A stretch of 31,507 bases of DNA from a virus. The notes below the pieces were generated by a model. That model did no database searches. It worked only from the letters and a program-made list of their open reading frames with translations, and had not been told where the DNA came from. Both the position numbers and the translations under genes were made by a program. The number at the start of each line of letters is the position of its first letter. Position 1 is the first letter of the stretch. Location: positions 1 through 31,507 of IMG/VR virus record IMGVR_UViG_3300020401_000057; one strand, given 5' to 3'. Of the stretch, positions 6,799 through 31,507 are shown piece after piece.

Positions 6799-6822
6799 AA
6801 TTCGAAAGTTTGGAACATTAAT

Positions 6823-6851
6823 ATTATACACATTAAATATACTATTGGCAG
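6823..6851 (-). promoter_or_regulatory. Sigma70-like promoter for the fibre genes
   Basis: On the minus strand CTGCCA (6851-6846) is followed by a 17-base spacer and a perfect TATAAT (6828-6823). Transcription would start near 6816, giving a leader of about 17 bases before the ATG at 6798. The site sits in the 76-base gap between divergent genes. No clear Shine-Dalgarno sequence precedes the fibre ATG. Confidence 0.5.
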
Positions 6852-6874
6852 ATTTTTATTGTGTAAGTAAAATT

Positions 6875-14160: not shown

Positions 14161-17100
14161 ATGAGTATTAACATAGATGTACAAGGTAACACAACACCTC
14201 TTGAAAGAGATGTACAAGCCGCTGTAAAAAGAATCAACCGCTCTGGCGGAGTTAAAATCCGTATAGACGAAAAAGGCGTAACGCAACCGCTTGGAAACAT
14301 GAAGCGTAGCGCTGATGAATTTACAAAATCATTGGAAGCTTCTAATGCTCGTGTTCTTGCGTTCGGCGCATCTGTTGGAATTATTAATGCTGTAGCTGAT
14401 GCGTTCAAGGGCTTGGTGACAAGCACCATGAAGGTAGAAAAAAATCTTACTGACATTAATGTTGTGATGGGGCTTACCAATAAGCAGCTTGATAAATTTG
14501 GAGGCGGATTATTTAAGGTAGCAAAAGAAACAGGCGCTGGATTTGATGCAGCAAGTGAAGCTGCCACAGAATTTGCACGTCAAGGTTTGAGTGTTAATGA
14601 AACTTTAAAAAGAACCAAAGACGCTTTGATACTAACAAGGCTGACCGGAATGAAAGCTGCGGAATCGGTTAAATCTTTGACCGCTGCAATGAATACATTT
14701 AAAGGAGAAATTTCAGACTCAACAAAATTGGTAAGTAAATTTGCTGCGGTAGATGTTAAGTTTGCAGTTAGTGCTGAAGATTTCGCTCAAGCTATTGCTA
14801 GGTCAGGACAGGCTGCACGAGACGCAGGGGTTGATTTAAATGATTTAATAGGTTTAGTTACAGCTGTTCAAGAGCGTACTGCTCGTGGTGGTGCTGTAAT
14901 TGGTAATAGTTTTAAAACTATTTTTACAAGGGTTCAAAGGAGTTCTACTCTTAATGAGCTAGAGAATATTGGAATCGCTGTTAGAGATATTAGTGGTAAT
15001 ACTTTACCTGCGATACGTATTTTAGAAAGTCTTGCTAAAAAATACGATCACTTGAATGACGCGCAAAGAGCATATATTTCTCAGAATGTTGCGGGAGTTT
15101 TTCAAGTTAATATTTTAAAAGCCGCTTTGTCTGATTTAAGTAAAGCAAACAGCGTCACTGCACAGGCAACAAAAATTGCATCTAACGCAACAGACGAATC
15201 AAGTAGAAAAAATGAACAATTAAGAGAAACAATGTCTGCACTAGCAGGTGAAACTGGTGTGGCTGTGCAACAACTCGCTAAAACAATTGGAGACATCGCT
15301 CTTGCTCCAGGTATTAATAAAATACTTGATGGTATCAAAGGGCTTGCAGAAGGCGCAACAAATTTACTTGGCAATGGAGAAGATCAAGGTAATACTTTTG
15401 CAAAAGGAGTATTAAAAGGCATTGGAAATATTATTACTGGCCCAGGCTTGGTAGTAATCGGAGCACTATTTACTAAACTTTTTGTAAACGCAGCAAAATA
15501 TGCAACAAGCAGTTTAAGTAGTTTGTTGAATATGAATAAGGCGGCTGCTGGAAGAAAAAGTATTGAAACCAGCTTGATGCAGGTTTTAACTCAAAATGCA
15601 GCTTTGCAGCAAGAAATGCTGAGAACAGATATTAGTCGCGAACAAAAAGAAAAAACAATTTTAAATTTAATTAAACAGCAAACCACTGAGGCTGCAAGAT
15701 TAGCAAGCATTACAAAAAGCATGACACCTTCATTGATGCGTCAAGGTGTTGGGCCTAATTTGAGTTATAGTCGTAGAGGAGCATATGGATTTATTCCAAA
15801 TTATGCTAAAGACGATCAAGAAAAGAAAATGGCCAGAAGCGCAGGATACACACCAGGTCATATCAAAACTATGAATATACCAGGCGCAGGAGGTATGATA
15901 TACAATAGTTCCGAAACGGTTAAAAATTTTCCAGGCCTTTCGCAGCCAGCAATTATGCCGCCCGCTTCAAGTAAAGCTGGAGAGAATTATAAAAAAATAT
16001 TTGCTAGCACGCATGGATTTGATCCATATGCTGCGCAAGGATATATTCCTAATTTTAGTTTAGTTGGCGCACTGCAAAGATTTGCCGCAGGTGGTGGAAA
16101 GCTTACTGGGCTAGCTACATCGAAACATCACCACGGAAATAGCCTGGAAGGCGCTCTTATTAACGAGTGGAAAGCTTCTGGGCGTAGCCAATCAAATTTA
16201 AACAAAGGAAGTATTGACGCTTTTATAACTGCAAATGCTGGTAAATTCGACAACAAAACAGATTTAGTATCTTATAAAGGTCATTTAAGCAGGGGTAGAG
16301 CGGTGGGCCGAGCTGAGCGGGGAATTACGAACATCAATGCAGGAGGGTCAAGCTTTGTTGTGCTTACTGCAGACGAACAAGCAGATAACCCAAATCAACA
16401 TATGTTTGCAAACCGGAGCGGTCAAATTGGTGGTTCTAAGGGTACCGCGACAACAAAGATACTTAAAAAACCAGCAGCTTATAAAATTGCGACCCCTTTA
16501 TATGGAATGGGTCCAGGAGAAGAGAAAAAAATGCAGGCTAAAAAATCTAGAAGCATACAAAATGAGCTTCAAGATTATATGACCAATGGAGCTATTGATC
16601 TCGCAACAGATATTATGGGCAAACCAATTAAGCCTATTAATAAATCACACATAGAAAGCTCTCTTAATAAAGGTGCAGTTAGTGCGGCAGCAGGAGGAAT
16701 ATTTGAATCTGGAATTGCATCAATTATGGATAAAGTTGAAAGCGAAGGCTTGTTCCAAAACTATATGGCTCGAACTGATACATCCGCGATTGACTTGCCA
16801 GCTTCTCCGCAGCTATATGAACTTTTTGGAGTAAAAAATAAAGGTCAGGCTGGGGCTGAAGCAAAAATATCTATGTCCGAGCCAAATATAAAAAGCAGCG
16901 CCAAGAAATTTCTTGATATACTTGGGCCAAAAAGCAAGGATGCGTTTGCGTACGCTGATTCGAACTATAAAGAGAGCGAAAAATTTAGAAGAATGCGGCA
17001 GCCTGGAAGGGCCGCTGCTGGATATATTCCAAATTACGATGATCCATTAACCGCATCAATTAAGCGAGAAAAAAGCGCTGGGGTGCCTGTTTCAAAAATA

Positions 17101-20100
17101 CGAGTTGGGTCACACAGAGCATTAGTTGGCAGAAGCAACCCTATGGGACTGGGAGTTACAAATACTGATGACGAGCCGGGCGGATTAAAAGATTTATTTG
17201 GAGCAAAAGGGTTTGTGCCTAATTATGCTTTAGGTGATATGTTAAAAATGGGCACCCAGGAATCTATTGATAATGCTAATGAACAAGTTGATAAACTTTC
17301 GATGGAGTACGATGATTTGAGAAGCGAAATTAAAGAGGCTAAAAGAATCCAAGAAGAAGCTAATGCAGCAAGTAAAGAAAATCAAAATGAGGTCGACGAG
17401 TATACAAAAGCAATAGAAAAAGACAAGGAAGAATTAAAAAGAAAACGAAAAGGTTCTAAAAGATACAACGAACTTCAAAATAGAATTAATAATACCACCC
17501 AAAAATTAGATGCAGCTAATAATAAACTTACCGCGTCCAAAGATAGATCAAGCGCTGCGACCAATAGAGTTTCAACTGCAGAAAATAAATTAAAAACAAC
17601 TTCAGATAAACTTGCAACCGCAAGAAGAGGCGCCACAAGGCAAACCAGGGCCGGATCTATGAGGAGTGCTGCACCTATGGCTCTTGCGATGGGGCTACCA
17701 ATGGTGTCTGGTATGATTTCTCAGGCAGCTGGAGAAAACAAAACTGGACAAGGAATTGCGGGTGGTCTAACTGGGGCTGCAACAGGAGCCATGATGGGCA
17801 GTATGATTCTACCCGGAGTAGGAACTGCAATCGGCACGGTAGTCGGAGCGCTAGCGGGCGCAGTCAGTTCATATAACCAAGCATCAAAGGCTGCGGACGA
17901 AAAGAAAAAAGCAGACGAAGCGGCGGCTGAAGCTGCGAGAAAAAATGCGCAAGCATTTAATGAAAATTCATTCGCCCAAACAGCAGCTAAAGCTGCTGCG
18001 ACTAACACTCTATTGAAAAACTTTTCTGGAGGTAACGGAGGAATAGGAGCTTTAGGTCTTAATAATAATTTTTCGCTTAATGTTGCAAGCGGAGAAATAA
18101 GTCAAAATGGGTTTCCAACACCATATACGGGGCTTTCACTAAAACAAGCGGCGGCACGAGAAGCTGCATACGAAAAAAATATTTTGAGCGATAGAAGTAT
18201 ACATAAAAGCTTAATAGACTTATCTGATGTTGAAAAAGGAGGGCCAGGAAATGGGATGAGATCAAACATAGAAAAAATATATGGATTCAGCAAGCAAACA
18301 AAACAACAAAATTTCAAAAAAGACATGACTAGAGCTGCAATAGATATTGTTAACAGTGGGTCACAGGGCAATGAATCGGCAATTGAAAATTTAAGAAAAA
18401 AGTATCCTTATAAACAAAAAGAAATTGATGACTTTTCAAAAATGAGTCGGGGAGAGATGGAAATGATGTCACTGCTAGACTCAACCACAAGTGTGAGCGG
18501 CGCAGGCAAAACCGACCTGGAAGCTCTGTTGAATGGCACCATAAAAACCGATAATTCTGCAATCAAAAACGCCGAAGAGGTCGCTCGAAAATTGCAAAAC
18601 GAAATAGTAGCTAATTTATATGGTACTGGAAAAGAAGCTGATAGAGTTCATACCACAACTATTGCGAATACAAAAACTAAAGACGGAAAGCCTGTTACTG
18701 AGCATCGTGAAGTAAAGATGACTGGAAAAGATATGGCAATTTTGCAAAGAGGAGGAAAAGAAAGTTTAGAGCTCGGAAGAAAACTAGGCATGACTGAAAA
18801 GGATATAGAAACCTTTAAAAATGGTCAGCTATTGGCAGTTAAACAACAGTCTCAAATTATACAAGATCAAACAAATGCATTTATTAAAACTTTAAACTTT
18901 CAAAGTATAGAACTTAAAGTTAGACATGATTTAAACAAAAGCCTTCAATCTCAAGCTCATTCCGCAACAGAATTGTCAAATAAAAATAAAGCTTTATCTG
19001 CAATCATGGGAAAAAATTTGAAAGAAGCAACAAGGGTCAGCATGCAAACCGAAGAACAAAGATTGGCGATTAAAAATCAGAGATCTAAATCGGATTTAAC
19101 TGCCGAATCAGATTTTAGATCAGGGTTATTTAAATCAATCTCTGGGAATACTGTGGCTTCAGATCAATTTAGAACAGTTTTTGGAGCAGATCAAAAAGAA
19201 GATGGCACTATAGAGTTTAAGAATAATGCAGGTCTAAAACAATTATTTACAGGGTTAGGCAAAAATGCTGGTACTCCAAAATTTCTTGAAAAACAATACA
19301 ACAAATACATAAACACCGCAGAAAGTGATGGCGTAGAAAGCGCGTTATCAGGAATAGATATAAAGGTATTGAAAGCTATGGTGGAGCAAGAAGATGGAAT
19401 ACTTAAAAATAATGCAGCATTAAGAAGACAATTGGAGGGATTAATTCTAAAAAGAGAAAACGCTTTAGAGCTTTCTAAGAAAGATTTTGATTTTTCAGAT
19501 CAACAATTAACCATTATAAGTAAAATAAACTCAGATCTGGCAAAACAGTCTGATATCAGAAAAGATATATCAGATAGAATTGATATTGACTCAAAAAAGT
19601 TAGCGTCACAAGTGGCTATCGCGCAAAAGACTTTAGAAATAGAAAAGTTAAGAAGGCAAGTTGCTCAAGGCCCTGGATATCAAACTGCATCTGTAACTGC
19701 AAGCAACCAATTGCAAGATATTGATGAAACATTTAATATTCAAGAGCTTGCCATGCGTGGAGAAAACAATATACAAAGAAGAAGTTACGAAAACGAAATT
19801 CTTAATCCACTTAAATCTAAACTACGTTCAAAATCTGAAATGCTGTCAAATCCTAAAAACACCCCAGAACAATCGAAAGTTCTAAGAGAACAATATACAA
19901 AAATTTCAAAAGATATTCGAAAAGCAGAAGAATCACAAGCTATAATCGTAGCACAGCAAGAATCAGAAATTGAGAATTTAATAAAAATGCGCGATCTAAG
20001 AAAAGAAATGATAAAAGACGAATTAAATGCTAGGGGTAGTTTCTCAGCAGGCATGAATGAATCTCTTAGAAAAATGTCTGATGAATCTAGTGACTTTTAT

Positions 20101-21495
20101 AATAATTTGGGGCAAATGATTCCAAATGCTTTTGCGAATAATTTGAGCAACGCAATGACCAATGCAATTAAACAAGGAGGAAGCTTAAAAGATTCTTTGA
20201 AAGATGCAGCTTTATCATTTTTACAAACCATGAATCAAGCGTTCGCGCAACAATTCGCAAGAAACGCTACTCTTGCTATATTTGGTAGCGGCGAGGAAAA
20301 ATTTAGAGGGGGATTGGTAAAAAGAAATAAAGGTGGACTTGTTCCTGGTATGCTTACTAACGGAGAATACAGAATGAATCCAGGCGCAGTTTCTAAATAC
20401 GGGGTTAGTATGATGGATTCTCTAAATGCAGGACACCTACCTAAAAGAAATTCTGGAGGAATGATGAGTTCACTTGTGGGTTTTGGAGTTACAGCTGGAC
20501 TGCAAAGTTTATTTAAAAAGAAAGAAGAGCCAAAGCACGAAGTAAGAAAAAAGGATCGATTTGAAACTGACGGAGCATTTAAAAAACATAATATGTCCGC
20601 TCATTATATGCAAAATAATTCTAGAGCTCAAGCATACGTTGATGAACTTAGACAACAAAAAGCAGAACAAACTAGAAAGTTTATAGAAAAAGCTGAAAAA
20701 CGAGCTCAAAGAGGTCGCGCAATTACTCAATTTATTGGCAACATGGCAATGGGTAAGCTAGGTAAACATCTCGAAAAATCAGGAGCATTCGCTAGGGCCG
20801 ATATAGCTTTAGGCCAAGGCACAGAAATTAGCACTGCAGATGGATTAAAAGGAATTATGGCTCCAGGCGGTAAAATTAAGCTCACCGAAGATATCCCATT
20901 TGGGCCTGCTGGAGTTGGAAAGGCAGGAGACGTAATGGACATTAAAAAGCTAAAAAGTTTTGGTTATAAATTTGGAAAAGGGAATGTTGATAGGGTTGCT
21001 GGTGGCGACCACGGTTGGTGGTCAAATGCCGCACAGTCAATAGGAAGCTTTGGAGAAAAATCCATGGGCATGGCAAGAAAATTTGGCTACAAAAATTCTG
21101 GAGGATCAGTTACAGGACCTTCTGGTATAGATAGAATACCAACAATGTTAAGTGAAGGAGAATATGTTATTCGAGCAGATGCAGCAAGAAAAATTGGAAG
21201 GCCTGCTTTAGAAAAAATCAACTCAGGAAGATATAATTCAGGGGGAATTGTAGCAAGCAATTCTTCTGGTCTTGATGGCGCATCGCCACAATCTGGAGGA
21301 GTAAATAATATATCCATAACAGTAAATGTTGATGGTTCGGGCGGACAATCAGGAGAAAAGAAAGATAACGATAGCAACGGAGATAAAAAGGATAAGATGG
21401 ATAAAATGTCTGCTAAAATTAAAGACCAAGTTGTCACAGTAATTAAAGAAGAAAGTCGCCCTGGAGGTCTACTCGATAAGGGAGGTGACGGATGA
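14161..21495 (+). CDS. Tail tape measure protein, 2444 aa
   Basis: The tape measure sets tail length and fills the tube before DNA passage. Residues about 50-360 resemble the TP901-type tape-measure core (AFGASVGIINAVADAFKG, TARGGAVIGNSFKTIFTRVQ). A hydrophobic stretch lies near 420-450. Four G[FY][IV]PN[YF] motifs lie at residues 543, 627, 954 and 1017. Between the second and third is a block with a nuclease-like pattern E849, D878, E900-x-K902. A coiled coil spans about 1028-1155, a glycine zipper (GIAGGLTGAATGAMMGSM) about 1196-1240, and long helices about 1450-1950. Two copies of the GG..LxxGEYxxxxxAxxxxG motif (2058-2090 and 2314-2357) and a final RPGGLL complete the typical C-terminus. 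At about 1.5 angstrom per residue the upper bound on tail length is roughly 365 nm; folded insertions would shorten it. Start supported by AAGGAACAAGG; the stop overlaps the next ATG. Confidence 0.95.
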   Translation: MSINIDVQGNTTPLERDVQAAVKRINRSGGVKIRIDEKGVTQPLGNMKRSADEFTKSLEASNARVLAFGASVGIINAVADAFKGLVTSTMKVEKNLTDINVVMGLTNKQLDKFGGGLFKVAKETGAGFDAASEAATEFARQGLSVNETLKRTKDALILTRLTGMKAAESVKSLTAAMNTFKGEISDSTKLVSKFAAVDVKFAVSAEDFAQAIARSGQAARDAGVDLNDLIGLVTAVQERTARGGAVIGNSFKTIFTRVQRSSTLNELENIGIAVRDISGNTLPAIRILESLAKKYDHLNDAQRAYISQNVAGVFQVNILKAALSDLSKANSVTAQATKIASNATDESSRKNEQLRETMSALAGETGVAVQQLAKTIGDIALAPGINKILDGIKGLAEGATNLLGNGEDQGNTFAKGVLKGIGNIITGPGLVVIGALFTKLFVNAAKYATSSLSSLLNMNKAAAGRKSIETSLMQVLTQNAALQQEMLRTDISREQKEKTILNLIKQQTTEAARLASITKSMTPSLMRQGVGPNLSYSRRGAYGFIPNYAKDDQEKKMARSAGYTPGHIKTMNIPGAGGMIYNSSETVKNFPGLSQPAIMPPASSKAGENYKKIFASTHGFDPYAAQGYIPNFSLVGALQRFAAGGGKLTGLATSKHHHGNSLEGALINEWKASGRSQSNLNKGSIDAFITANAGKFDNKTDLVSYKGHLSRGRAVGRAERGITNINAGGSSFVVLTADEQADNPNQHMFANRSGQIGGSKGTATTKILKKPAAYKIATPLYGMGPGEEKKMQAKKSRSIQNELQDYMTNGAIDLATDIMGKPIKPINKSHIESSLNKGAVSAAAGGIFESGIASIMDKVESEGLFQNYMARTDTSAIDLPASPQLYELFGVKNKGQAGAEAKISMSEPNIKSSAKKFLDILGPKSKDAFAYADSNYKESEKFRRMRQPGRAAAGYIPNYDDPLTASIKREKSAGVPVSKIRVGSHRALVGRSNPMGLGVTNTDDEPGGLKDLFGAKGFVPNYALGDMLKMGTQESIDNANEQVDKLSMEYDDLRSEIKEAKRIQEEANAASKENQNEVDEYTKAIEKDKEELKRKRKGSKRYNELQNRINNTTQKLDAANNKLTASKDRSSAATNRVSTAENKLKTTSDKLATARRGATRQTRAGSMRSAAPMALAMGLPMVSGMISQAAGENKTGQGIAGGLTGAATGAMMGSMILPGVGTAIGTVVGALAGAVSSYNQASKAADEKKKADEAAAEAARKNAQAFNENSFAQTAAKAAATNTLLKNFSGGNGGIGALGLNNNFSLNVASGEISQNGFPTPYTGLSLKQAAAREAAYEKNILSDRSIHKSLIDLSDVEKGGPGNGMRSNIEKIYGFSKQTKQQNFKKDMTRAAIDIVNSGSQGNESAIENLRKKYPYKQKEIDDFSKMSRGEMEMMSLLDSTTSVSGAGKTDLEALLNGTIKTDNSAIKNAEEVARKLQNEIVANLYGTGKEADRVHTTTIANTKTKDGKPVTEHREVKMTGKDMAILQRGGKESLELGRKLGMTEKDIETFKNGQLLAVKQQSQIIQDQTNAFIKTLNFQSIELKVRHDLNKSLQSQAHSATELSNKNKALSAIMGKNLKEATRVSMQTEEQRLAIKNQRSKSDLTAESDFRSGLFKSISGNTVASDQFRTVFGADQKEDGTIEFKNNAGLKQLFTGLGKNAGTPKFLEKQYNKYINTAESDGVESALSGIDIKVLKAMVEQEDGILKNNAALRRQLEGLILKRENALELSKKDFDFSDQQLTIISKINSDLAKQSDIRKDISDRIDIDSKKLASQVAIAQKTLEIEKLRRQVAQGPGYQTASVTASNQLQDIDETFNIQELAMRGENNIQRRSYENEILNPLKSKLRSKSEMLSNPKNTPEQSKVLREQYTKISKDIRKAEESQAIIVAQQESEIENLIKMRDLRKEMIKDELNARGSFSAGMNESLRKMSDESSDFYNNLGQMIPNAFANNLSNAMTNAIKQGGSLKDSLKDAALSFLQTMNQAFAQQFARNATLAIFGSGEEKFRGGLVKRNKGGLVPGMLTNGEYRMNPGAVSKYGVSMMDSLNAGHLPKRNSGGMMSSLVGFGVTAGLQSLFKKKEEPKHEVRKKDRFETDGAFKKHNMSAHYMQNNSRAQAYVDELRQQKAEQTRKFIEKAEKRAQRGRAITQFIGNMAMGKLGKHLEKSGAFARADIALGQGTEISTADGLKGIMAPGGKIKLTEDIPFGPAGVGKAGDVMDIKKLKSFGYKFGKGNVDRVAGGDHGWWSNAAQSIGSFGEKSMGMARKFGYKNSGGSVTGPSGIDRIPTMLSEGEYVIRADAARKIGRPALEKINSGRYNSGGIVASNSSGLDGASPQSGGVNNISITVNVDGSGGQSGEKKDNDSNGDKKDKMDKMSAKIKDQVVTVIKEESRPGGLLDKGGDG
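16147..16870 (+). other. Nuclease-like block embedded in the tape measure
   Basis: Within tape-measure residues about 660-905, between two GYIPN motifs. The stretch GGIFESGIASIM places a glutamate at 849, AIDLPASPQLYEL an aspartate at 878, and AEAKIS the pair E900-x-K902. The order E ... D-(21)-E-x-K is the classical PD-(D/E)XK nuclease signature. A preceding stretch (HHHGNSLEGALINEW, E663) has a similar opening and may be a second, diverged or scrambled unit. This is a motif-level observation only; the fold is not proven. Confidence 0.4.
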
Positions 21496-22520
21496 GTTTT
21501 TCAAGTTACGAACAAGAATTTGTTATAAACGATCAAATTATAAGCGGTATTTCTTCTGCTTCTATTTCTTATGGATCAAGCGTAGAGCCTTTGTATCTTG
21601 CTGGAATAGGATACATAGACAGTTTCATTAATGGACCAGTAGAAGGCGACCTATCTATTACAAGATACATGCTTGGGCCGGATATTCTTGCAGATAAACG
21701 TGATAATCAAGATCTTACTGGGGGATTTGTTCTTGGAGAAGGAGTTCAAGAAGCAGGTTTTACAAAAGGGCGCGTTATATCTAGAAAAGTTTCTTGTAAT
21801 ATAGGAGAAATTCCAGCCATAGATAATACAATAAGAATTTACGGTAACTTTGGCGGAGGAATTCCAGCAATAACTGGGAGCTATACCGACTCTCAGGGTA
21901 ATCCAATTAGTTCTTATGAAGGTGTTAAAGTAAACCAAGAAGACAGAGAGTATATAATTCCTACTCAAGGTAGTATTGCTGTTGAAATCGGAGGAAACGA
22001 TTATGATATTCTTGGTTTTGCTATCGATAGAACTTTAACAGTCGAGGCTTTATATGCTCTTAATAAAGAACACATTAATTCATTAAAAAATTATGAAGCA
22101 CATGATATACAAATTATATATCCTATAGAAACAAAATTAGATTTTACTATTTCGCAAGAAGATTATAATATATTACAAATGAGAGAGCTGATGGATTATG
22201 ATTCAATTCAATCTAGCGTAGAAAATTTAAATGTTAAAATATATGATCCACAAACAATGGATGATCCAACTCCGCGTGTAATTAATGAATACAATATTGT
22301 TGGCGCGAAACTTTCTTCTGTCAATCAAAGCTCCGCAACAGAGCAAGAAACTACTGTCGCTCTAAGTTTTGTAGGATTCGAAACCGATCCGAGGACACCA
22401 GACACATACCCAACTGAACAAACCACGCCAACACCGAGCTACGGAACAGATGCCACGGGAGATTTTATAACCGCAGAAGAACAGGCTAATTCTGATGAAA
22501 GGATGTTTGGTGGGCTATGA
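21492..22520 (+). CDS. Tail tube/ring-like protein near the tail tip, 342 aa
   Basis: Starts on the stop of the tape measure (ATGA) with GGAGGTGA as a strong ribosome binding site. The protein is beta-rich with no membrane segment. The first half has ISGISSASISYGSSVEPLY and GPVEGDLSITRYM; the second half, GFAIDRTLTVEALYAL, NYEAHDIQIIYPIETKLDFT and IVGAKLSSVNQSSATEQETT. Both halves fit the two-domain tube-like pattern also seen in the 411- and 559-aa proteins and in the next gene. The C-terminus (about 295-342) is a low-complexity T/P/D-rich tail. Placed between ruler and tip proteins, it likely forms a ring at the distal tube end, comparable in position to a distal tail protein. The fold assignment is inference. 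Confidence 0.55.
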   Translation: MSFSSYEQEFVINDQIISGISSASISYGSSVEPLYLAGIGYIDSFINGPVEGDLSITRYMLGPDILADKRDNQDLTGGFVLGEGVQEAGFTKGRVISRKVSCNIGEIPAIDNTIRIYGNFGGGIPAITGSYTDSQGNPISSYEGVKVNQEDREYIIPTQGSIAVEIGGNDYDILGFAIDRTLTVEALYALNKEHINSLKNYEAHDIQIIYPIETKLDFTISQEDYNILQMRELMDYDSIQSSVENLNVKIYDPQTMDDPTPRVINEYNIVGAKLSSVNQSSATEQETTVALSFVGFETDPRTPDTYPTEQTTPTPSYGTDATGDFITAEEQANSDERMFGGL

Positions 22521-23455
22521 GCGAGTTTACTAGTTTTAACAGATGCCTGATTGAACTCGGGGATCAACAAATATTTGCTACATCTGCAAGCTTAAACATT
22601 GCACCATCACTAAAACGCGATGTAAGGTTTGATGGATTTAGTCTTACTGATGCTGGGGCTACGGTAAATGACCCAACTTTTGTACCAACAGGGCCGCTAA
22701 AGGGTTCGTTGTCTTTTGAATTTATAGTTGCTGATCAACATTTTAATCCAATACAAACCATATTTGATATTAGCGAAAATATGAAAGAAAGCCCTATAAC
22801 TATGGGTAGAATAGGTCAATACAGATTTTGGACGGCGTATCTGTCTAACTTTTCTTTTACTATGGAGCCATTTCAGTTAATTAAAGCTAAAGCAGAATAC
22901 GAAATATTTGGAACAATACATGAAATTGGCGACAAAAAACTAGCAGAAGTTCCAGATATTAATCCTGCAGAAAGTTTAAAAAGCTACGGAGAAATAGTTG
23001 CTTCGGGTATAGATCTTCAAGATGAGAATAATAAATTTGATTTAAGAATGCTTAGTGTTGAATACAGTGCAAAAGCTTCTAGGAAGACAACATACACAAT
23101 TAGAATGAATGAACATAGAGCATCGCTACTTTCATCGGGAGGTTTGCTTCCTTACAGGAGCGCAATAAATAGTATAGAAATTAATTGCAACATAAAGTCT
23201 AATAAAATAATTAACTATGTAAATCATATGGGCGAAATACAAATGAAAAATCCTTCTGAAATACCACAAAACGTTGCTGTTGACTTGCACCTATATGGCG
23301 CTAAGAAAATAGATGTTCCAGGTGGTAATCCAGATCGTCAATCTCCGCACATAGCGACATTTAGTTGTATAGGTAAAGTGATGTCTCAGAGTTTAGAGGT
23401 TTCTACAGGAGGGTATCTTAGTGGTAATTTTCAGGTATCACAGGTAATTAGATAA
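22517..23455 (+). CDS. Tail tube/ring-like protein, second copy, 312 aa
   Basis: Overlaps the upstream stop by 4 bases (ATGA). Beta-rich, with two comparable halves. The first has FATSASLNIAPSLKRDVRFDG followed by LKGSLSFEFIVADQ. The second has LRMLSVEYSAKASRKTTYTI followed by SINSIEINCNIKS-type strands (AINSIEINCNIKSNKIINYV) and a closing SGNFQVSQVIR. The pattern of an opening strand, a long loop and a paired-strand sheet is shared with the preceding 342-aa protein and with the tube proteins. It directly precedes the gpM-like gene, so a tail-tip ring or adaptor between tube and tip is likely. No catalytic motif is seen. Exact counterpart in lambda is uncertain. Confidence 0.55.
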   Translation: MSEFTSFNRCLIELGDQQIFATSASLNIAPSLKRDVRFDGFSLTDAGATVNDPTFVPTGPLKGSLSFEFIVADQHFNPIQTIFDISENMKESPITMGRIGQYRFWTAYLSNFSFTMEPFQLIKAKAEYEIFGTIHEIGDKKLAEVPDINPAESLKSYGEIVASGIDLQDENNKFDLRMLSVEYSAKASRKTTYTIRMNEHRASLLSSGGLLPYRSAINSIEINCNIKSNKIINYVNHMGEIQMKNPSEIPQNVAVDLHLYGAKKIDVPGGNPDRQSPHIATFSCIGKVMSQSLEVSTGGYLSGNFQVSQVIR

Positions 23456-26400
23456 TGAGTGCTAGATATACAGGCTTTTGGGATCCAAAGAGAAACTATA
23501 TAGTAGACGATATTGTTACTTATTATAGTACAACTGGATATAACACAACTACATACTATAAATGCATATCTCCTGTTAGTTCTGTAAGAAACAATCTGGG
23601 ATACACTGGATGTCCTCTTGCGGATTTTCAGCAACCCGTTGTTTCAGGAGGTTTAACTCCTTATGTTATTGATCCCGCAGAATGGAATCCAACTAAAGGT
23701 CACAAACTAATAGAAATCTCTGCAGAATTAATGTCTGATACATCAGATTGGACGTCATATCAATATTATCATGGCACTTTTTGGCAAGGACCAAATGGTG
23801 ACCCAGCAACACTATCGTTACAAGGTCATTTGTGGGAAGTAACGACTGTCTCAGCTAATACAGCAAACATAGAGAATGCGCCCGTAGCGTCTCAAAATTT
23901 TAGCGCAACATCAAGAACAACTGCCACGGGTGGATTGTACAATTCTCCTGGATTAGAAGAGATTCCGTTTGATAATATAGCAGACTCAGAAGAGGGCGGA
24001 GAACTTGAGGCGGATAATTACTATATATCTTCAGTGCAAAATTACAAAGGATATTGGAATAAAGCTGGGGATTATAAAAAATTTGATATTGTTAGACACA
24101 GAGAAAGTAATGCTTTTTACTACGCTAAGAAAGATATAAATAATTTTATAAATTCTGCGTGGGAGGATTATGGGAGCGATATTCGGACTTTTATTTCGCT
24201 CGATATGTTTCCGCCTGATATTCCGCTGGTAGAAAATCATGTTGGTACTGTAGTTTGTAGAGACCCTACAGGTTTTATTTACGATAATCAGGGGAATGTT
24301 TTGAATAATCGTATGATTGAAGGTCAAACTGTTAGGATAGATTTGGGTGGAAATGTAATTCTTGGAACTTATTCTATAGCAAGGGTGACGAACGACGTAA
24401 TGCTTTTGGCGAGTTATTGTGCTAGTGGGCAAGACTATCACCAGGTGACAGAAGAAGATTTTTTACCGAATTTTTCCTCAAGAGGTATGGATTTTAAAGT
24501 ATTAACCTTAGATGAAAGCGCTGGAGATCCATTTTTAGACAATGATTATCAAAACGATTGGACTAAGGATCATTTTATATTTGATCCAGACTACGGATCT
24601 TCTGTTGAGTTTAAGTCGGATCTTGTTGCTTACGAATATGGAGACGGTTATAATTCTTATAGACCTAAAGGCCCTAATGGTTTGAATGCTACTTTTAAAT
24701 TAAAATTTTCTAATAGAACAAACCGCGAAGCAAACGCTATACTTCACTTTATTGAAAACCATTTAGGTCAACACGAACCAGGTCCAGAAAAAAAATTCCA
24801 ATTAGACTATGATCAAGGTATTGATGGTTTTTATATGGATGGATTAAGTTTATTTTTTCCATATTTAAATACAGAAAATTTAACACGAAAATTTTATTGT
24901 TTTGAATTTGATCATGAAATTGAAACAGAAGACACACATACTGTAAACTTATCTATATTTAATAATAATGCTAGTATTTTAAATAGAAATGATTATATGT
25001 ATCTTAATAGACCTGATATATATGACGAAGATAGAATTTACAGAAAAAATGATGTTGTATATGTAGAAGAAAATGATGCATACTATTATCATATAGGTGA
25101 AGTGACGAGTCACGGAGACCCGCCGATTGTAGAAGATGCAGATGGTAATGTAACTTCAATCAATCATAATATATGGTCAAGAGAATTCCATTGGTTTGCG
25201 TCTACCCCGTTTAATGTAAGCCATAAGCCAAGTATTGTTGAAATGGGCGGAAAAAATTCGGCATATACTCAATATTTTCCTGGCAATAAAGCAAATATAA
25301 ATCTTTTAGAGTTTCAATTAACATTTTCAAATAGACACGCCGAAGAAGCGTACGCTATACTGCATTTTCTAGAATCACACCTAGGCTATAGATCGTTTTT
25401 ATATACTCCTCCAGCTCCATATAACAGAAAAAGGAGGTTCATATGCACGGAGTGGACTCACACTTACGAATTTCAAAATAGTCATACTATCACAGCCAAG
25501 TTTCAGCAATTTGCGTTGGGACAAAATACACCGTTAGATGACGATGAAATAGATTCTGTAAGATTAGAAAAAACTGCTCCTCAGGGGGCTAAGTTGGTTG
25601 CTAATCACGAAATTAATTTAGAGTCAAGCTATTTGCCCGCAAGTGGTAATAAATTTTTTGTAAGAAATATTGTTGAAATAGAAAATATTGGAGAAAAAGA
25701 AGCTGAAAATATTACCGTAGCAATTACTGAAGACCCCAATTCAAATTTTGCTATAAGTAAATTAGGGACATATGCTGACATTACTGGTAAGGAGATGTTA
25801 TCTTCACCAGAAGGTCACAATAACGGTGAGTCTGGAGTGTTTTTATATAGAGAGTCTGGCGTAATAAAAGCGCAGGATAATCTTGGTAGGAAATCAACGG
25901 TTGGTTCTGGAATTTTAAGCGATCGAGAAACAGGTGGGGAGGAGCATATCAGCTGGAATTTTATAACTGAGCAAAATACGTTAGAAGTCGGTAATAAGAT
26001 TTTTGTGGAAGTTGTTACTGAGGTTGATGATGCCCAAAAGAATGAAATTTATGACGCAAAATTAAAATTTCAATATAATTCAAAAGACGAAAGTGAGACT
26101 TTAGAGTCTACAATAAATATTAACGCAAGAATAGCTTACGAAGCTTCTAAAGAACACACCATTAATGTTGACGTGGAAGGTAGCGATCTTGCGGACTCGT
26201 ATAAAAAAGACTACTCTGTAGATGTTTATTCTGAAATAAATACTGTTGATCCCGCAGATCAGTTTCTTAACTTTAAGGCTAGCGCAATGGTGTCTGGAGG
26301 GTATTTAGCGGAACCCAAAAGCATAGAAGAGTTTAACGACATGGTTTTGTCAAATGGAGTTTCAGGCCTTATATTGTTAGGAATTAAATATGATTCTTCT

Positions 26401-27441
26401 AGTAGTCCAGCCTGGACATATGTTACTAGCGGAGAAAATGCTACATCTTTTATGTCTAGCTTAGGGACGCTAATAAGCTCAGGAAACGTAAGTTATGATA
26501 ATAATATCACTAACGATTTAAGTGACGGAAACATGGTTGCATTTAAAACAAAAGGTAATCCTAGAGAAATTGAAAGCATCGAATCTATTAGCAATGAAAA
26601 CGCTTCATTAATTGATGCAATTATGATTGAAAATTTAAGATTTAATTCTTTGCATAATATTAATTTAAAAGACCTACTAATTCAGCAAGTCAATGCTGAT
26701 GGTAAAACGCTATCAAATATTAAAAACATTAACTTTAATATTTCTGGAGTGATATCTTCTAAGAGCGCTGATATTCCGGCAATAAAAAGCGGTAATGGTT
26801 ATATAAAAGGACAAATTGTTACAATTACAATGGCTGATGATTGCCTTGTTGTTGGTAAAGGTGGTAAGGGAGGTAACGGAATGTTTTCAGAAGGTAAGAT
26901 AGATGAAAATGATGGAAGTAAAACTTCAATTCCTTACATAACTCCCCCAGGTTCTGGCGAAGATGGGGGTGTTGCATTAGAAATAAATGAAACAAACACC
27001 TTAGTCCAATTCAACGTAACACTACCTTCAAGCGGTGGCGGTATATTTGGAGGAGGCGGTGGCGGTGCAGGCGGAAATGTAAATCAACCCCCGACTTTTG
27101 AGTGGCCAGTGTCTCTTTCTTCTAATATAGACTTTGGAGGCGGCGGGGGCGGTGGCGCAGGAATGGGAGAGCCTGGAAATATACTGGCTCGCGCAGGAAA
27201 AATAAACTCTGCTGGTAGTGGCGGAGAGCATAAGACGCACTCTCAAATGTATACGATGAATAATGGTGGAAATGGTGGAGAATTAGGGTCTGATGGAAGT
27301 TCGAATACGGCTGGTCAAATGTTTGAAGTTAGTGGTGGAAGCGCCGGCTCAGGTATATTATGTTATAACAGCACTAATTTAACAGTAACCAACAATAATG
27401 CTGCAAATTTAAAGGGTAGCCCTGACATAGAAAGATTATAA
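23455..27441 (+). CDS. Tail-tip protein: duplicated gpM-type domains fused to a glycine-rich adhesin, 1328 aa
   Basis: The start codon uses the last base of the upstream stop. Residues 4-82, 196-238 and 519-578 are W/Y-D-V surface modules (GFWDPKRNYIVDDIVTYY, GYWNKAGDYKKFDIVRH, YDEDRIYRKNDVVYVEE). Two copies of a phage minor tail protein (lambda gpM-like) domain lie at about 377-505 and 583-690. The first has YEYGDGYNSYRPKGPNGLNA and ILHFIENHLG. The second has ILHFLESHLGYRSFLYTPP, ICTEWTHTYEF and TITAKFQQF. From about 719 an Ig-like stretch (NIVEIENIGEKEAENITV) and a non-repetitive part follow. Residues about 1105-1300 are a glycine-rich adhesin: SGNGYIKGQIVTITM, VGKGGKGGNG, GIFGGGGGGAGGN and GGNGGELGSDG. 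This composition resembles the tip domain of T4-type Gp38 adhesins. The protein would place a receptor-binding domain on a tail-tip ring. gpM similarity is strong; adhesin function is inferred. Confidence 0.8.
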   Translation: MSARYTGFWDPKRNYIVDDIVTYYSTTGYNTTTYYKCISPVSSVRNNLGYTGCPLADFQQPVVSGGLTPYVIDPAEWNPTKGHKLIEISAELMSDTSDWTSYQYYHGTFWQGPNGDPATLSLQGHLWEVTTVSANTANIENAPVASQNFSATSRTTATGGLYNSPGLEEIPFDNIADSEEGGELEADNYYISSVQNYKGYWNKAGDYKKFDIVRHRESNAFYYAKKDINNFINSAWEDYGSDIRTFISLDMFPPDIPLVENHVGTVVCRDPTGFIYDNQGNVLNNRMIEGQTVRIDLGGNVILGTYSIARVTNDVMLLASYCASGQDYHQVTEEDFLPNFSSRGMDFKVLTLDESAGDPFLDNDYQNDWTKDHFIFDPDYGSSVEFKSDLVAYEYGDGYNSYRPKGPNGLNATFKLKFSNRTNREANAILHFIENHLGQHEPGPEKKFQLDYDQGIDGFYMDGLSLFFPYLNTENLTRKFYCFEFDHEIETEDTHTVNLSIFNNNASILNRNDYMYLNRPDIYDEDRIYRKNDVVYVEENDAYYYHIGEVTSHGDPPIVEDADGNVTSINHNIWSREFHWFASTPFNVSHKPSIVEMGGKNSAYTQYFPGNKANINLLEFQLTFSNRHAEEAYAILHFLESHLGYRSFLYTPPAPYNRKRRFICTEWTHTYEFQNSHTITAKFQQFALGQNTPLDDDEIDSVRLEKTAPQGAKLVANHEINLESSYLPASGNKFFVRNIVEIENIGEKEAENITVAITEDPNSNFAISKLGTYADITGKEMLSSPEGHNNGESGVFLYRESGVIKAQDNLGRKSTVGSGILSDRETGGEEHISWNFITEQNTLEVGNKIFVEVVTEVDDAQKNEIYDAKLKFQYNSKDESETLESTININARIAYEASKEHTINVDVEGSDLADSYKKDYSVDVYSEINTVDPADQFLNFKASAMVSGGYLAEPKSIEEFNDMVLSNGVSGLILLGIKYDSSSSPAWTYVTSGENATSFMSSLGTLISSGNVSYDNNITNDLSDGNMVAFKTKGNPREIESIESISNENASLIDAIMIENLRFNSLHNINLKDLLIQQVNADGKTLSNIKNINFNISGVISSKSADIPAIKSGNGYIKGQIVTITMADDCLVVGKGGKGGNGMFSEGKIDENDGSKTSIPYITPPGSGEDGGVALEINETNTLVQFNVTLPSSGGGIFGGGGGGAGGNVNQPPTFEWPVSLSSNIDFGGGGGGGAGMGEPGNILARAGKINSAGSGGEHKTHSQMYTMNNGGNGGELGSDGSSNTAGQMFEVSGGSAGSGILCYNSTNLTVTNNNAANLKGSPDIERL

Positions 27442-27442
27442 A

Positions 27443-28480
27443 ATGGAACCAGATAGTTCAAAGAAAAATATAACAAAAGAAGTTTTTAAGTTAGAATCTG
27501 ATGCTATTGTTGAGATGTATGAAATAGACTTTTCTCACTTACAAAATGACTTTTCTTTTCTAAGTAAAAAACACAAAGTAGACTTAGGTTCTGAACCTGT
27601 ATATAGATTTTGTCCCGCAGCAAACACAACACAACCAATAAGATGGCAAGGTAAAAGCTACCAACCACTACCTATATTTACATCTGATTTTGAGATGCCT
27701 TCAGACGGCAGGCTACCAAGACCAAAACTATCCATAGCAAATCCATCTGGTTTGTTATCAACAATAGTTTTAATGAATCATGATTTTCATGGGTGCAAGG
27801 TAACAAGAAGAAGAACATTTGTAAAATTTTTAGATGACGAAAACTTCAGGCCAAGAGATTCCAACGCACCACCTAAAAACCCAAGTGGGCAAGCTGATCC
27901 TAACGCTCATTTGCCAGACGATATATTTTATATAAATAGAAAAATTGCTGAAACCAAAGAAAGTATAGAATTTGAGTTAACGTCCATGCTTGAAATGGAG
28001 GGGGTTATATTTCCTGCAAGAGAGATGCTTGCAGATCACTGTTCTTTTAGGTACAGAGGTGCAGGTTGTGGATATACTGGCGCACCCTGCTGTACAGAAA
28101 CAGGGTCTTCGTTTGCCAAATACGGAGTAACAAAGTTTACCAACCCAAACACGCAACAGCTTATATCTGTAATAAATTGGCAAAATAACTCTCAACATTT
28201 TTTGGAGTCAATAAAGTGGGATGTAGATAAAGCTTATCAAAAAGGTAATATAGTAAATCATCCTGGATTTAAAGAGCCCTATGTTCCGGCAATATTTGTA
28301 TGTATAAAAACGCACGAAGACCCATCTCCTAATCCATATAGCGCAAAAGATTTTTGGATAAAAGATAGTTGCGAAAAGACGCTTGGAGCATGTTTAAAAA
28401 GATGGGGAGGAAATTTAGCTAATGGAGAACCTGTTCCATTTGGTGGGTTTCCAGAAACCGCAGGTTTTAAACATCAATAA
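27443..28480 (+). CDS. Minor tail protein L, cysteine-cluster tail-tip protein, 345 aa
   Basis: Order and motifs match lambda gpL, which sits in the tail tip and binds an iron-sulphur cluster. The body ends in HCSFRYRGAGCGYTGAPCC (C200, C209, C216, C217), followed later by CEKTLGACLKRWGG (C310, C317). The pairs C200-x8-C209 and C310-x6-C317 are the likely cluster ligands by analogy with gpL. Between them, at about 254-309, lies an extra W-Y-GN-V-W module (IKWDVDKAYQKGNIVNH, FVCIKTHEDPSP, FWIKD). At 345 residues it is longer than lambda gpL (about 230), largely because of this insertion. It follows the gpM-like gene by one base and precedes the gpK-like gene by one base. Assignment is firm; metal binding is inferred from cysteines. 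Confidence 0.9.
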   Translation: MEPDSSKKNITKEVFKLESDAIVEMYEIDFSHLQNDFSFLSKKHKVDLGSEPVYRFCPAANTTQPIRWQGKSYQPLPIFTSDFEMPSDGRLPRPKLSIANPSGLLSTIVLMNHDFHGCKVTRRRTFVKFLDDENFRPRDSNAPPKNPSGQADPNAHLPDDIFYINRKIAETKESIEFELTSMLEMEGVIFPAREMLADHCSFRYRGAGCGYTGAPCCTETGSSFAKYGVTKFTNPNTQQLISVINWQNNSQHFLESIKWDVDKAYQKGNIVNHPGFKEPYVPAIFVCIKTHEDPSPNPYSAKDFWIKDSCEKTLGACLKRWGGNLANGEPVPFGGFPETAGFKHQ

Positions 28481-28481
28481 T

Positions 28482-28826
28482 ATGCCACAAATAGATGAAG
28501 AGATTTTAAATAAAATAAAACAAGCTGCAGAAAATAAAAAACAAGAAATAGCTGGTGTTATATTTAATTTTAATGGTTTGAATTTTTATCAAATGCCCAA
28601 CAAATCTGGTGATAAATCTGCATCTTTTAGGATAGACGAAAAAATTATATTACTTAAAGATAAAATACATTGTTTTGTTCATTCTCATCCAGAATCTGAT
28701 GCAATGCCTTCTGAGTCAGATAAAAGATTATACAACAATCATAAAATACCACTTTTAATATATAGCTGTATTTATGATAATTTTTTATATTTTGATGGTG
28801 AAAAGTGTAAGCCTATTAAGGTATAA
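28482..28826 (+). CDS. gpK-like JAMM/MPN metalloprotease, 114 aa
   Basis: I choose the ATG at 28482 (MPQIDEEILNKIKQ), one base after the gpL stop; an in-frame ATG at 28422 lies inside gpL. The sequence carries the full JAMM signature: E22 in EIAGVIF, then H67-S-H69-P70 and S77-x2-D80 in VHSHPESDAMPSESDK. Phage JAMM proteins in this position correspond to the N-terminal half of lambda gpK. They are thought to process or help assemble the tail tip, with Zn2+ held by the two histidines and the aspartate. Lambda gpK (about 200 residues) also has an NlpC/P60 peptidoglycan hydrolase half, which is entirely absent here. The gene is very AT-rich. It lies between gpL and the gpI-gpJ fusion, as in lambda. 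Confidence 0.88.
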   Translation: MPQIDEEILNKIKQAAENKKQEIAGVIFNFNGLNFYQMPNKSGDKSASFRIDEKIILLKDKIHCFVHSHPESDAMPSESDKRLYNNHKIPLLIYSCIYDNFLYFDGEKCKPIKV

Positions 28827-28828
28827 GG

Positions 28829-31507
28829 ATGAAAAATATTTATTTACATGGCGTTTTTGAGCAACGGCTCGGGAGTAAGTGGAGGCTTAACGTATCATCT
28901 CCTGCGGAAGCCGTAAACGCTATAGACTCTAATACTAATGGCAAACTGACATCTACTATGTCAGAAATAATACAAAACGGGGATGATTTTGCTATAGCGT
29001 CTATAGGAGATAAGCAATTAAATAGAATTGAGTCCTTTTTAGCAAACGATGAATTTGATGAAAATATTTTAAATGATATTTTTTGCAATGAGAAGGATTT
29101 TTATTGTTTGTCTAAAGATTCTGATATACATATTATACCTGTCATAGAAGGTGAGGCTATTATTGGCGGACTAATGGCTATGGTTGGTAAAGCCGCTGGG
29201 GCACTTAAGGGTGTTATGGGCAAGATGAGCCTAAGTAAAACAGCATTTAATATTTTGGCGCCAATGGCTGTATCTGCGATAGCAAATGCGCTATTTCCTT
29301 CCCCAAAAGTTACAGACAAAACAAGACAAACTAAGTCGTACTTATTTGATGACAGGCCAAACACAACAAGGCAGGGCGCTCCGGTTCCGATAGGCTATGG
29401 AATGCTGAAAATTGGATCTAATACAATCTCATACAATAGGACCAATAAAGATAAAACTGGAGCCTCTAAGAATGGACCGATCGAAACATTTACAACATAC
29501 AACGTTTATGACGTTTTATCTGAAGGCCCAATTGAGGGCTTATGCGACTTTGCTGGAAATCTAGCTGGACCAGCAAATGATGGTAATATCAACCGAGCGA
29601 GCACTTTTAACGACAATGATGCACTAAAGTCAATGTTCTTGAATGATATGGTGATTATGAATCATCCATCAAATAGTTTAAACTTTTTGGTTAATGAAGA
29701 CGATATTCAACCACAAGGAACGCTGGGGTTCTTGGATACAACTTTAGAATCTAGAGGTAGTTTTTTTATTGCTGGAGAATCAGAAAACGCTTCTTCTTCT
29801 GAGCTTCCTGGCCCCAGCAATGGATCAAAGGCTCCTCCTGCGATATTAACTGGTTTGCCAGAACCATTTCTTGATGCTCAAAACAACGGAGCTAAGGTTT
29901 TTTCATATCCAATCACAAGGCCTTATACCCAGTTACTAAAAATTACATTAAGCCCTCAAGCTATGTTTCATAATTGGACAGATCAAAGAACTAGGCGTGG
30001 ATTTTTGGGTATTGGAGCTAGGTCAAAAGTAGTTACTGGAACATCTGGCCAAACAATAGAAGCGTTAGTAACTCTAAGAGACGGTGCGGCTAGAATTCCG
30101 GTTATATACCCTAAAGAAAGAGGCGGTTTTGGTGGTGGAGAAGGGGGTACCACCTGGACGACAACAACTGACGGCCAAAGATCTGTAACCAATCACTTGG
30201 GCCCTACTGACAGCATGTCGGATCCTAGGCCGTGGTCTGCAGCGGATTTTAATGGAATGTTTGCTAGAGCAATGTTTTATTCTAATACAGAAGTATTTGC
30301 GGAATGTAATAGTATTTTTAATTTAATTAATAAATTAATATCAACCTACAATTCTACAGAAGTAATAGCCAGTACAGATCATTTTGGCACAGAATCAAAT
30401 TTAACTTTTATACAAGCCGTGGATGATATATATGGTGATGATGCATACGAGGATCAAAGGAATAGTATAGGGGAGGTGTTAGTTGATCTAATATCCGTAA
30501 TCAGAGCAGGTGGCTCTGCACAAGAAATGTCTTACAGATATTATCACCAGATCATGCCACTAATTAAAAAAGAAATTCAAAAAAAATATGGCACTTCAAA
30601 TCGCCCAGGATTTAAGGTGCTAGGCGCAGATGGGATTATATATAACTGTGGAGAAAAAGAGCATTCTATACTTACTGTCGCAGGATTATGTACTAGTCCA
30701 GCAGGCCTAGATTTACATGTTGCCCTACCATACTTTGGTCCAAGCGAGAGCTTGGTGATGACAATGGTTAGGACAACATTAGAGTATACAGACCCAAAAG
30801 ATTTAAGAGAAAAAAACAATAAAATGAGATTAAGCTCTATAACTTCAGCAGACGGATTGATGGGTAGAACTGTAAAGTATTCTCACCCTGGGGTGTCTTG
30901 TATTAAAATACCTTTTGACGCAGTTAATTTTCCACAGCTTCCCGAGCGAAATTTTTTAGCCAAACTTAAAAGGGTTGCTGTTCCAGAAAATTATAATCCT
31001 GTAACTAGAAAATATCATGGAGCTTGGAATGGGTTATTTCATGGCCAGACCGAATCTAATTTAGATTATGGAGGGATAAAAGAGAAAGACTTAAAGTGGA
31101 CTGACAACCCCGCTTGGATCTTGGCCGATATACTTTTGAATAGAAGATATGGGGTGGGTTCTTTTGGTTTTACTATGGCTGATATTGATATATGGAAACT
31201 ATACGCTGCTGCAAAATTTTGTGATGAACTGGTAGAAACTGGGTTTCCTTTAGAAAACCCAAAAAGAAGATTTGAAAGCACGGTATCCAATCAAACAAAG
31301 AAACAATTTTTATCTACCGAGCCAGAGCAAAATTCCTTTACAGTCAAAATTGAGTATAACCATTTACAGGCGTCAGAAAGGCCTGCTGCTTTTTCCGCAG
31401 AATTTAATTTGGCACACAAAGATACAAAATATTCTGCTGGTAGAAAGGTAGCGTTTTTTATGGATGATGGCTCTATAGAAGAAAGAACCGTGACTAACGC
31501 TAATATG
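28829..31507 (+). CDS. gpI-gpJ fusion: tail-tip host-specificity protein (C-terminus beyond window)
   Basis: Open from the ATG at 28829 to the right edge (893 codons). Residues 1-190 match lambda gpI: KNIYLHGVFEQRLGSKWRLN with SPAEAVNAI at the start, a hydrophobic glycine-rich stretch GGLMAMVGKAAGALKGVMG near 112-130, and FDDRPNTTRQGAPVPIGYG at about 173-190, a gpI C-terminal signature. The chain continues without stop into a gpJ-type central tail-tip protein, with YDVLSEGPIEGL at about 226 and NPAWILADILLNRRYGVG at about 760. gpJ forms the tail tip, recognises the host receptor and opens during DNA ejection. In lambda, I and J are separate genes. The receptor-binding C-terminus of gpJ is not in the window. 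The ATG is 2 bases after the gpK stop. Confidence 0.92.
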   Translation, partial: MKNIYLHGVFEQRLGSKWRLNVSSPAEAVNAIDSNTNGKLTSTMSEIIQNGDDFAIASIGDKQLNRIESFLANDEFDENILNDIFCNEKDFYCLSKDSDIHIIPVIEGEAIIGGLMAMVGKAAGALKGVMGKMSLSKTAFNILAPMAVSAIANALFPSPKVTDKTRQTKSYLFDDRPNTTRQGAPVPIGYGMLKIGSNTISYNRTNKDKTGASKNGPIETFTTYNVYDVLSEGPIEGLCDFAGNLAGPANDGNINRASTFNDNDALKSMFLNDMVIMNHPSNSLNFLVNEDDIQPQGTLGFLDTTLESRGSFFIAGESENASSSELPGPSNGSKAPPAILTGLPEPFLDAQNNGAKVFSYPITRPYTQLLKITLSPQAMFHNWTDQRTRRGFLGIGARSKVVTGTSGQTIEALVTLRDGAARIPVIYPKERGGFGGGEGGTTWTTTTDGQRSVTNHLGPTDSMSDPRPWSAADFNGMFARAMFYSNTEVFAECNSIFNLINKLISTYNSTEVIASTDHFGTESNLTFIQAVDDIYGDDAYEDQRNSIGEVLVDLISVIRAGGSAQEMSYRYYHQIMPLIKKEIQKKYGTSNRPGFKVLGADGIIYNCGEKEHSILTVAGLCTSPAGLDLHVALPYFGPSESLVMTMVRTTLEYTDPKDLREKNNKMRLSSITSADGLMGRTVKYSHPGVSCIKIPFDAVNFPQLPERNFLAKLKRVAVPENYNPVTRKYHGAWNGLFHGQTESNLDYGGIKEKDLKWTDNPAWILADILLNRRYGVGSFGFTMADIDIWKLYAAAKFCDELVETGFPLENPKRRFESTVSNQTKKQFLSTEPEQNSFTVKIEYNHLQASERPAAFSAEFNLAHKDTKYSAGRKVAFFMDDGSIEERTVTNANM

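Follow-up and report, generated by a model that had tools for sequence, protein, structure and literature searches.

The protein gpM of phage lambda is present in six copies, which adopt two conformers and form a threefold ring (PMC10721106). In phage JBD30, three chains make up the distal tail protein, each with two beta-sandwich domains, and this trimer takes the tail from sixfold to threefold symmetry (PMC11445458). In myophage S16, the adhesin Gp38 grips the gp37 fibre by its N-terminal domain (PMC6851490), and in gp25 of the Alishewanella siphophage LSH1, reported in June 2026, a Gp38-like domain forms the C-terminal end of the hub protein (PMC13243795). Glycine-rich 'brush' domains, at least as cited in the LSH1 report, occur in mycobacteriophages, including Bxb1 (PMC13243795).

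Here we analyzed a 31.5 kb virus record from a marine phage (31,507 nucleotides, hereafter the window) encoding a large protein that, according to a preliminary description, joins gpM-type domains to a glycine-rich, Gp38-like adhesin.

A Tandem gpM Protein in a Lambda-Like Tail-Tip Locus

The tail-tip genes of the window follow the lambda-like order, namely tape measure, gpM, gpL, gpK, and gpI/J, with two extra ORFs between tape measure and gpM (Table 1), the second of which matched no database family. Among the relatives, gpM was followed by gpL in nearly all whose locus reaches that far. The fused glycine-rich ORF was recovered uninterrupted at exactly the positions first described, and its motifs, VGKGGKGGNG starting at V1133, GIFGGGGGGAGGN, and GGNGGELGSDG, read as originally quoted. 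Its product is likely the distal tail protein of a siphophage with a lambda-like tail.

Table 1. Coordinates of the tail-tip genes in the window and of the regions of the tandem-gpM protein
Feature	Window position	Strand	Evidence or remark
Tape measure protein	14161..21495	+	PF10145, E 1.1e-26; several tape-measure PHROGs
Tail-tube-like protein, first of two ORFs preceding gpM	21492..22520	+	PF18906, E 1e-5, weak (25.7 bits vs. cut-off 27)
Second of these ORFs, similar in size	22517..23455	+	Tube-like by position and by eye only
Likely distal tail protein with tandem gpM-type domains and predicted C-terminal Gp38-like adhesin domain	23455..27441	+	1328 aa; ATG start; ORF unbroken
N-terminal surface region (residues 1-367)	23455..24555	+	CBM5/12-like motifs at about residues 5-40 and 196-230, read from sequence
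gpM-type ring domain 1 (residues 368-508)	24556..24978	+	PF05939, E 7.8e-8
Inter-domain module (residues 509-571), CBM5/12-like by eye	24979..25167	+	Sequence pattern only
gpM-type ring domain 2 (residues 572-700)	25168..25554	+	PF05939, E 5.6e-13
Ig-like beta-sandwich region (residues 701-915)	25555..26199	+	Predicted model, pLDDT about 80-90 over much of the region; Ig-like beta-sandwich proteins in the Foldseek list
Fast-evolving linker (residues 916-1060)	26200..26634	+	Low identity among relatives
Start of Gp38-like domain, helix and beta-helix part (residues 1061-1131)	26635..26847	+	AlphaFold2 model; PF05268 match at 1063-1308
Glycine-rich motifs and loops, predicted polyglycine-sandwich part (residues 1132-1297)	26848..27345	+	Foldseek to 9v85_C and 6f45_D; motif order
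Loop A (residues 1143-1166), long, nearly invariant in close relatives	26881..26952	+	89-100% identity
gpL homologue (hub)	27443..28480	+	TIGR01600, E 6.9e-50
gpK-type JAB protein	28422..28826	+	PF14464, E 1.5e-6; phrog_30, E 1.3e-14
gpI-gpJ fusion (hub), cut by the window end	28829..31507	+	phrog_32 at 1-209; phrog_31 at 663-807

Elsewhere in the window, two fibre-like proteins with repeated GNVGIGTTSP-type motifs are encoded on the minus strand (3-2894 and 2923-6831), the latter with Pfam matches to bactofilin and, weakly, to CBM5/12. An oppositely oriented pair (6845-8110, plus strand; 8158-9837, minus strand) encodes proteins that resemble each other by eye and had no confident family.

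The presence of two gpM-type domains was borne out. PF05939 matched the whole 1328-aa protein in two stretches (E 1.7e-19). Cropped separately, domain 1 (24502-25014, residues 350-520) scored 33.1 bits, under the family cut-off of 39, and domain 2 (25132-25554, residues 560-700) scored 49.7 bits, over it, with the E values given in Table 1. Aligned with one another by hhalign, the two domains proved homologous (probability 98.8). Lambda gpM (8iyk, 109 aa) matched residues 577-684 by phmmer (E 1.2e-7) and was also reached by fold (Foldseek TMt 0.72, probability 1.00). Both domains and the short module between them were found in all nine aligned sequences, at 42 to 64% identity to the window. 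The predicted model of residues 182-1062 was weak overall (pLDDT 67, pTM 0.42), and its best PDB matches were chain 8rk3_D of the JBD30 baseplate (E 2.8e-4) and chain 8vjh_B of the phage Chi tail tip. Judged by chain length and the residue ranges in the paper, 8rk3_D is probably the JBD30 distal tail protein.

Of the surface modules attributed to this protein, the CBM5/12-like motifs at the N terminus are visible by eye and Pfam scored CBM_5_12 in two of five orthologues in alignment A1, but Pfam called no CBM5/12 in the window protein itself. Several tail proteins in this group of phages have CBM5/12 matches, some of them weak.

The C Terminus Is Predicted to Adopt the Gp38 Adhesin Fold

Glycine makes up 27% of residues 1130-1297 vs. 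7% of residues 1-1060. An AlphaFold2 model of residues 1060-1328, built from 13 sequences, was confident (pLDDT 89.9, pTM 0.85). When it was compared by Foldseek with 350,542 PDB chains, only two matched at E<=1e-3, both of them Gp38 adhesins with probability 1.00: PP01 Gp38 (9v85_C; E 1.7e-9, TMt 0.64) and S16 Gp38 (6f45_D; E 2.6e-8, TMt 0.53). The structure prediction returned the adhesin family that the preliminary description had suspected from a glycine pattern, and the C terminus is predicted to combine a beta-helix with a polyglycine sandwich as Gp38 does. In a library of viral models, proteins named Gp38 and tail fibre were among the top fold matches. As some of these are long, the Gp38 fold already serves elsewhere as a fused module. 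Together with the lambda-like gene order, the predicted fold agrees with the earlier proposal of an adhesin-like domain fused to a tail-ring protein.

Sequence profiles pointed the same way at lower strength. PF05268 matched residues 1063-1308 of the window protein (E 2.8e-4) at 21.3 bits for the whole protein and 24.7 for the crop, vs. a cut-off of 25, and exceeded the curated cut-off in four orthologues (37.9, 34.6, 28.0, and 26.4 bits). The match begins after the linker at profile position 6-7, with the Ig-like and gpM domains upstream, and the N-terminal Trp-bearing helical domain by which Gp38 attaches to gp37 has no counterpart in the window protein. No second PF05268 match was present in the 205 and 211 kb records. 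As a control for composition, a two-sequence HMM of S16 and T2 Gp38 was run against 500 each of full, block, and glycine-fixed shuffles. The window C terminus outscored 500 of 500 full, 500 of 500 block, and 497 of 500 glycine-fixed shuffles, and orthologues L010 and L004 (L numbers denote loci of relatives) outscored all 500 of every kind; L011 did not score above its shuffles with this HMM. Gp38 adhesins bind an outer-membrane receptor and pack about ten polyglycine-II helices into a lattice; the glycine motifs, when counted, run in the same order in the window, S16 Gp38, and T2 Gp38. The glycine positions are kept across the 13 sequences, of which some share no more than about 30% identity with the window. 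In the window, L010, and L004, the resemblance to Gp38 exceeds glycine composition; the strong evidence for it is the fold match.

A profile search of PDB sequences with the C-terminal alignment A2 returned nothing relevant, placing the Gp38 structures beyond the reach of sequence alone. Likewise, tblastn found no match to residues 1011-1328 among cultured phages or to residues 1060-1328 among plasmids. In one relative (L005:4518-5885), a CBM5/12-like motif seen by eye lies just before the first glycine motif and a second in the C-terminal part of the Gp38-like domain; Pfam scored CBM_5_12 in one member of alignment A3 (E 1.7e-4).

The Gp38-Like Domain Is under Purifying Selection

The preliminary description proposed looking for hypervariable loops between the glycine motifs in relatives; the loops proved not to be hypervariable, and the longest, loop A, shows the opposite. 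Its protein sequence is the same in the window and L002 (100% identity), the codons differing by 10 synonymous and 0 nonsynonymous changes (NG86); the identity of this pair to L003, L004, and L008 is 89%. In distant relatives the core of loop A (SEG) is kept while identity falls to 33%. The other loops vary more, at 45 to 75% identity between the window and L002, and are also more variable across clades, the faster ones being residues 1242-1269 and 1282-1292. Where computable, pooled dN/dS in these loops was 0.06 to 0.15, several synonymous distances being saturated, and the sole high ratio (0.79) came from the last 31 residues in the window/L002 pair. In this pair, evolution is faster in the Ig-like region than across the Gp38-like domain taken together. 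The Gp38-like domain is under purifying selection.

Fibre Genes Downstream of gpJ in Relatives

The adhesin had been described as lying next to a gpJ receptor-binding protein. A gpI-J gene is indeed downstream, but a receptor-binding gpJ is not established: the window ends inside the gene, and two relatives (the 205 and 211 kb records) place the fibre in a separate gene. In these two, gpI-J is 1632 to 1649 aa long and ends soon after the hub domains, and a giant fibre gene follows directly (L035:4041-14297, 3418 aa; L036:5069-16501, 3810 aa). Pfam placed a C-terminal Peptidase_S74 chaperone domain and a CBM5/12 match in the L035 fibre; the C-terminal sequence of the L036 fibre is similar by eye. 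The fibre function, which in lambda lies at the end of gpJ, thus appears to be a separate gene in these phages. The tip would then hold at least two candidates for host contact, with the Gp38-like domain as one of them, instead of a lambda-type gpJ tip to which that domain is added. Near the fibre gene of L035, two glycosyltransferase genes (group 1 and family 9) lie on the opposite strand (L035:207-3310), and ORFs similar to them by eye occur in L036.

Distribution and Domain Content of the Family

Scanning viral contigs with the C-terminal alignment A3 confirmed no relative, so we extended the family through the tandem-gpM region, which confirmed 339 relatives. The best 80 of these 339 loci were kept. 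A tree of 64 deduplicated rows, drawn from these best 80 matches and a few earlier loci by a quick search under a simple model, contained 13 rows with a fused Gp38-like domain (the window included), one with the domain as a separate gene (L018), and 50 without it. The fused rows formed one clade (SH-aLRT 100), with L018 as its sister (99) on a long branch. In L018, the Gp38-like part is a separate 706 aa gene (L018:8799-10919) that overlaps gpM by ATGA and precedes gpL. The preliminary description had set a separate gene with no link to the tail tip against its own reading; a separate gene does exist, yet it sits within the tail-tip operon, and so the Gp38-like part is linked to the tail tip in both forms. 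The L018 form may be either the state before fusion or a product of fission.

Complete family proteins ranged from about 730 to 2549 aa. The longest (L092:3556-11202) carries an N-terminal RCC1-like propeller (E 2.9e-67), and that of L022 carries DUF4214. This range of sizes and modules suggests that the tandem-gpM ring protein is a platform for appendages.

With respect to hosts, the whole-protein alignment matched nothing among genome contigs, and the gpM part matched once, in L116, a contig of 8.3 kb that had been assigned to a Flavobacteriaceae MAG. This is a weak hint that applies to the wider family, too weak to name a host. The gene psbA, a marker for a cyanophage link, was not found in four large records.

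A Proposed Tail-Tip Assembly and Its Alternatives

With two gpM-type domains per chain, three copies would close a pseudo-sixfold ring under the last hexamer of the tail tube, as in JBD30. The Ig-like spacers would reach outward and down from this ring, with three Gp38-like tips arranged around the hub. These would be adhesins borne on the tail tip, contacting the host surface by their distal loops. A trimeric tandem-gpM distal tail ring carrying three Gp38-fold adhesins around the hub is, in our view, the best explanation of the locus and a probable one. Homology and published structures argue for a trimer; the placement of the Gp38-like domains around the hub and their binding to a receptor are presumed, and the phage may have the second receptor specificity originally proposed for it. 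Points against this reading are that the loops do not show the hypervariability of T4-type Gp38, that the window protein falls just short of the PF05268 cut-off, and that the model of residues 182-1062 is weak.

The main alternative is that the domain keeps the adhesin fold but acts inside the virion, docking or capping a fibre, such as the giant one encoded downstream of gpJ, on the tip, with the fibre binding the host. The near invariance of loop A among close relatives and the strong purifying selection are compatible with docking, as are the position of S16 Gp38 itself on the gp37 fibre trimer (PMC6851490), the part played by the JBD30 distal tail protein in holding side fibres (PMC11445458), and the separate fibre gene (3418 to 3810 aa) right after gpJ in relatives. 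Yet Gp38 attaches to its fibre through the N-terminal helical domain that the fusion replaces in the window protein, the conserved loop belongs to the polyglycine portion, where Gp38 has its receptor loops, and the remaining loops vary more across clades; we regard docking as unlikely. We also doubt, rather strongly, that the domain is a virion decoration with weak, non-specific affinity for polysaccharides, comparable to the OB-fold or galactose-binding decorations of other distal tail proteins, and no specific adhesin. Distal tail proteins often bear decoration domains, including those of LSH1 and JBD30, and the CBM5/12 matches among the tail proteins of this group fit such a role, but the predicted fold is that of Gp38 and not a carbohydrate-binding one.

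We consider it hardly credible, as a further possibility, that the glycine-rich part resembles Gp38 by chance and is an elastic linker of low complexity. Glycine-rich sequence does inflate profile scores, as seen from glycine-fixed shuffles outscoring full ones and from the failure of L011 to beat them. Against this stand the confident model with Gp38 proteins as its sole significant PDB matches, the glycine positions conserved across divergent sequences, and purifying selection; on the predicted fold we reject the linker.

Beyond the ring of adhesins that we prefer, the family may reflect a more general arrangement, on which our judgment is evenly balanced. The tandem-gpM protein would be an exchangeable platform bearing, according to clade, a Gp38-like domain, an RCC1-like propeller, DUF4214, or long extensions of unknown nature, and a complete Gp38 adhesin domain would have been acquired by one clade, forming round the hub a threefold crown of adhesins that is constrained for a conserved receptor and not diversifying. 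Natural comparison sets exist in which this ring protein bears the domain as a fusion, is accompanied by it as a separate gene, or lacks it; with them one can test whether receptor specificity may reside on the distal tail ring and whether adhesins of this kind can go without diversifying.

Comparison with Known Systems

Like lambda gpM (PDB 8IYK), the window protein belongs to the PF05939 ring-domain family and occupies the gene position held in lambda between gpH and gpL, but the lambda protein has 109 aa, a single domain, six copies, and no appendage. Closer in architecture is JBD30 gp49 (probably PDB 8RK3 chain D), in which two gpM/tube-like beta-sandwich domains also share one chain and whose trimer bridges the sixfold tube and the threefold hub. 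Unlike the window protein, it has OB domains, and no Gp38-like domain is reported for it. The brush domains of Bxb1-type phages, as far as the citing report describes them, are likewise glycine-rich and located at a siphophage tail tip, but the fold match between a Bxb1 tail-tip chain and the window domain was insignificant (E 0.25).

Similarity to Gp38 of T2-, S16-, and PP01-type myophages (PF05268; PDB 6F45 and 9V85) extends over 271 alignment columns of predicted fold and includes the order of the glycine motifs and a helix and beta-helix before the polyglycine part. In contrast to Gp38, which caps the gp37 fibre trimer, the window domain is fused to a tail-ring protein and lacks the N-terminal attachment bundle. 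Its loops, unlike those of T4-type Gp38, are not hypervariable, and loop A, about 24 aa long, is conserved.

In the literature on Gp38 and polyglycine adhesins and on lambda-like tail tips, with subscription journals little covered, we found no report of a Gp38-like domain on a distal tail protein. The adhesin fold of Gp38 is best known at the ends of T4-type long fibres and has recently been seen on one siphophage hub; here it is predicted on a tail-ring protein. In that hub, LSH1 gp25, the Gp38-like domain is likewise placed covalently on a siphophage tail tip, and the published model has three copies of it per tail. A siphophage hub bearing such a domain is thus already on record, and placement on the distal tail protein is the new element: in LSH1 the domain ends the gpJ-like hub protein, whereas in the window it ends a gpM-like protein with two ring domains per chain.
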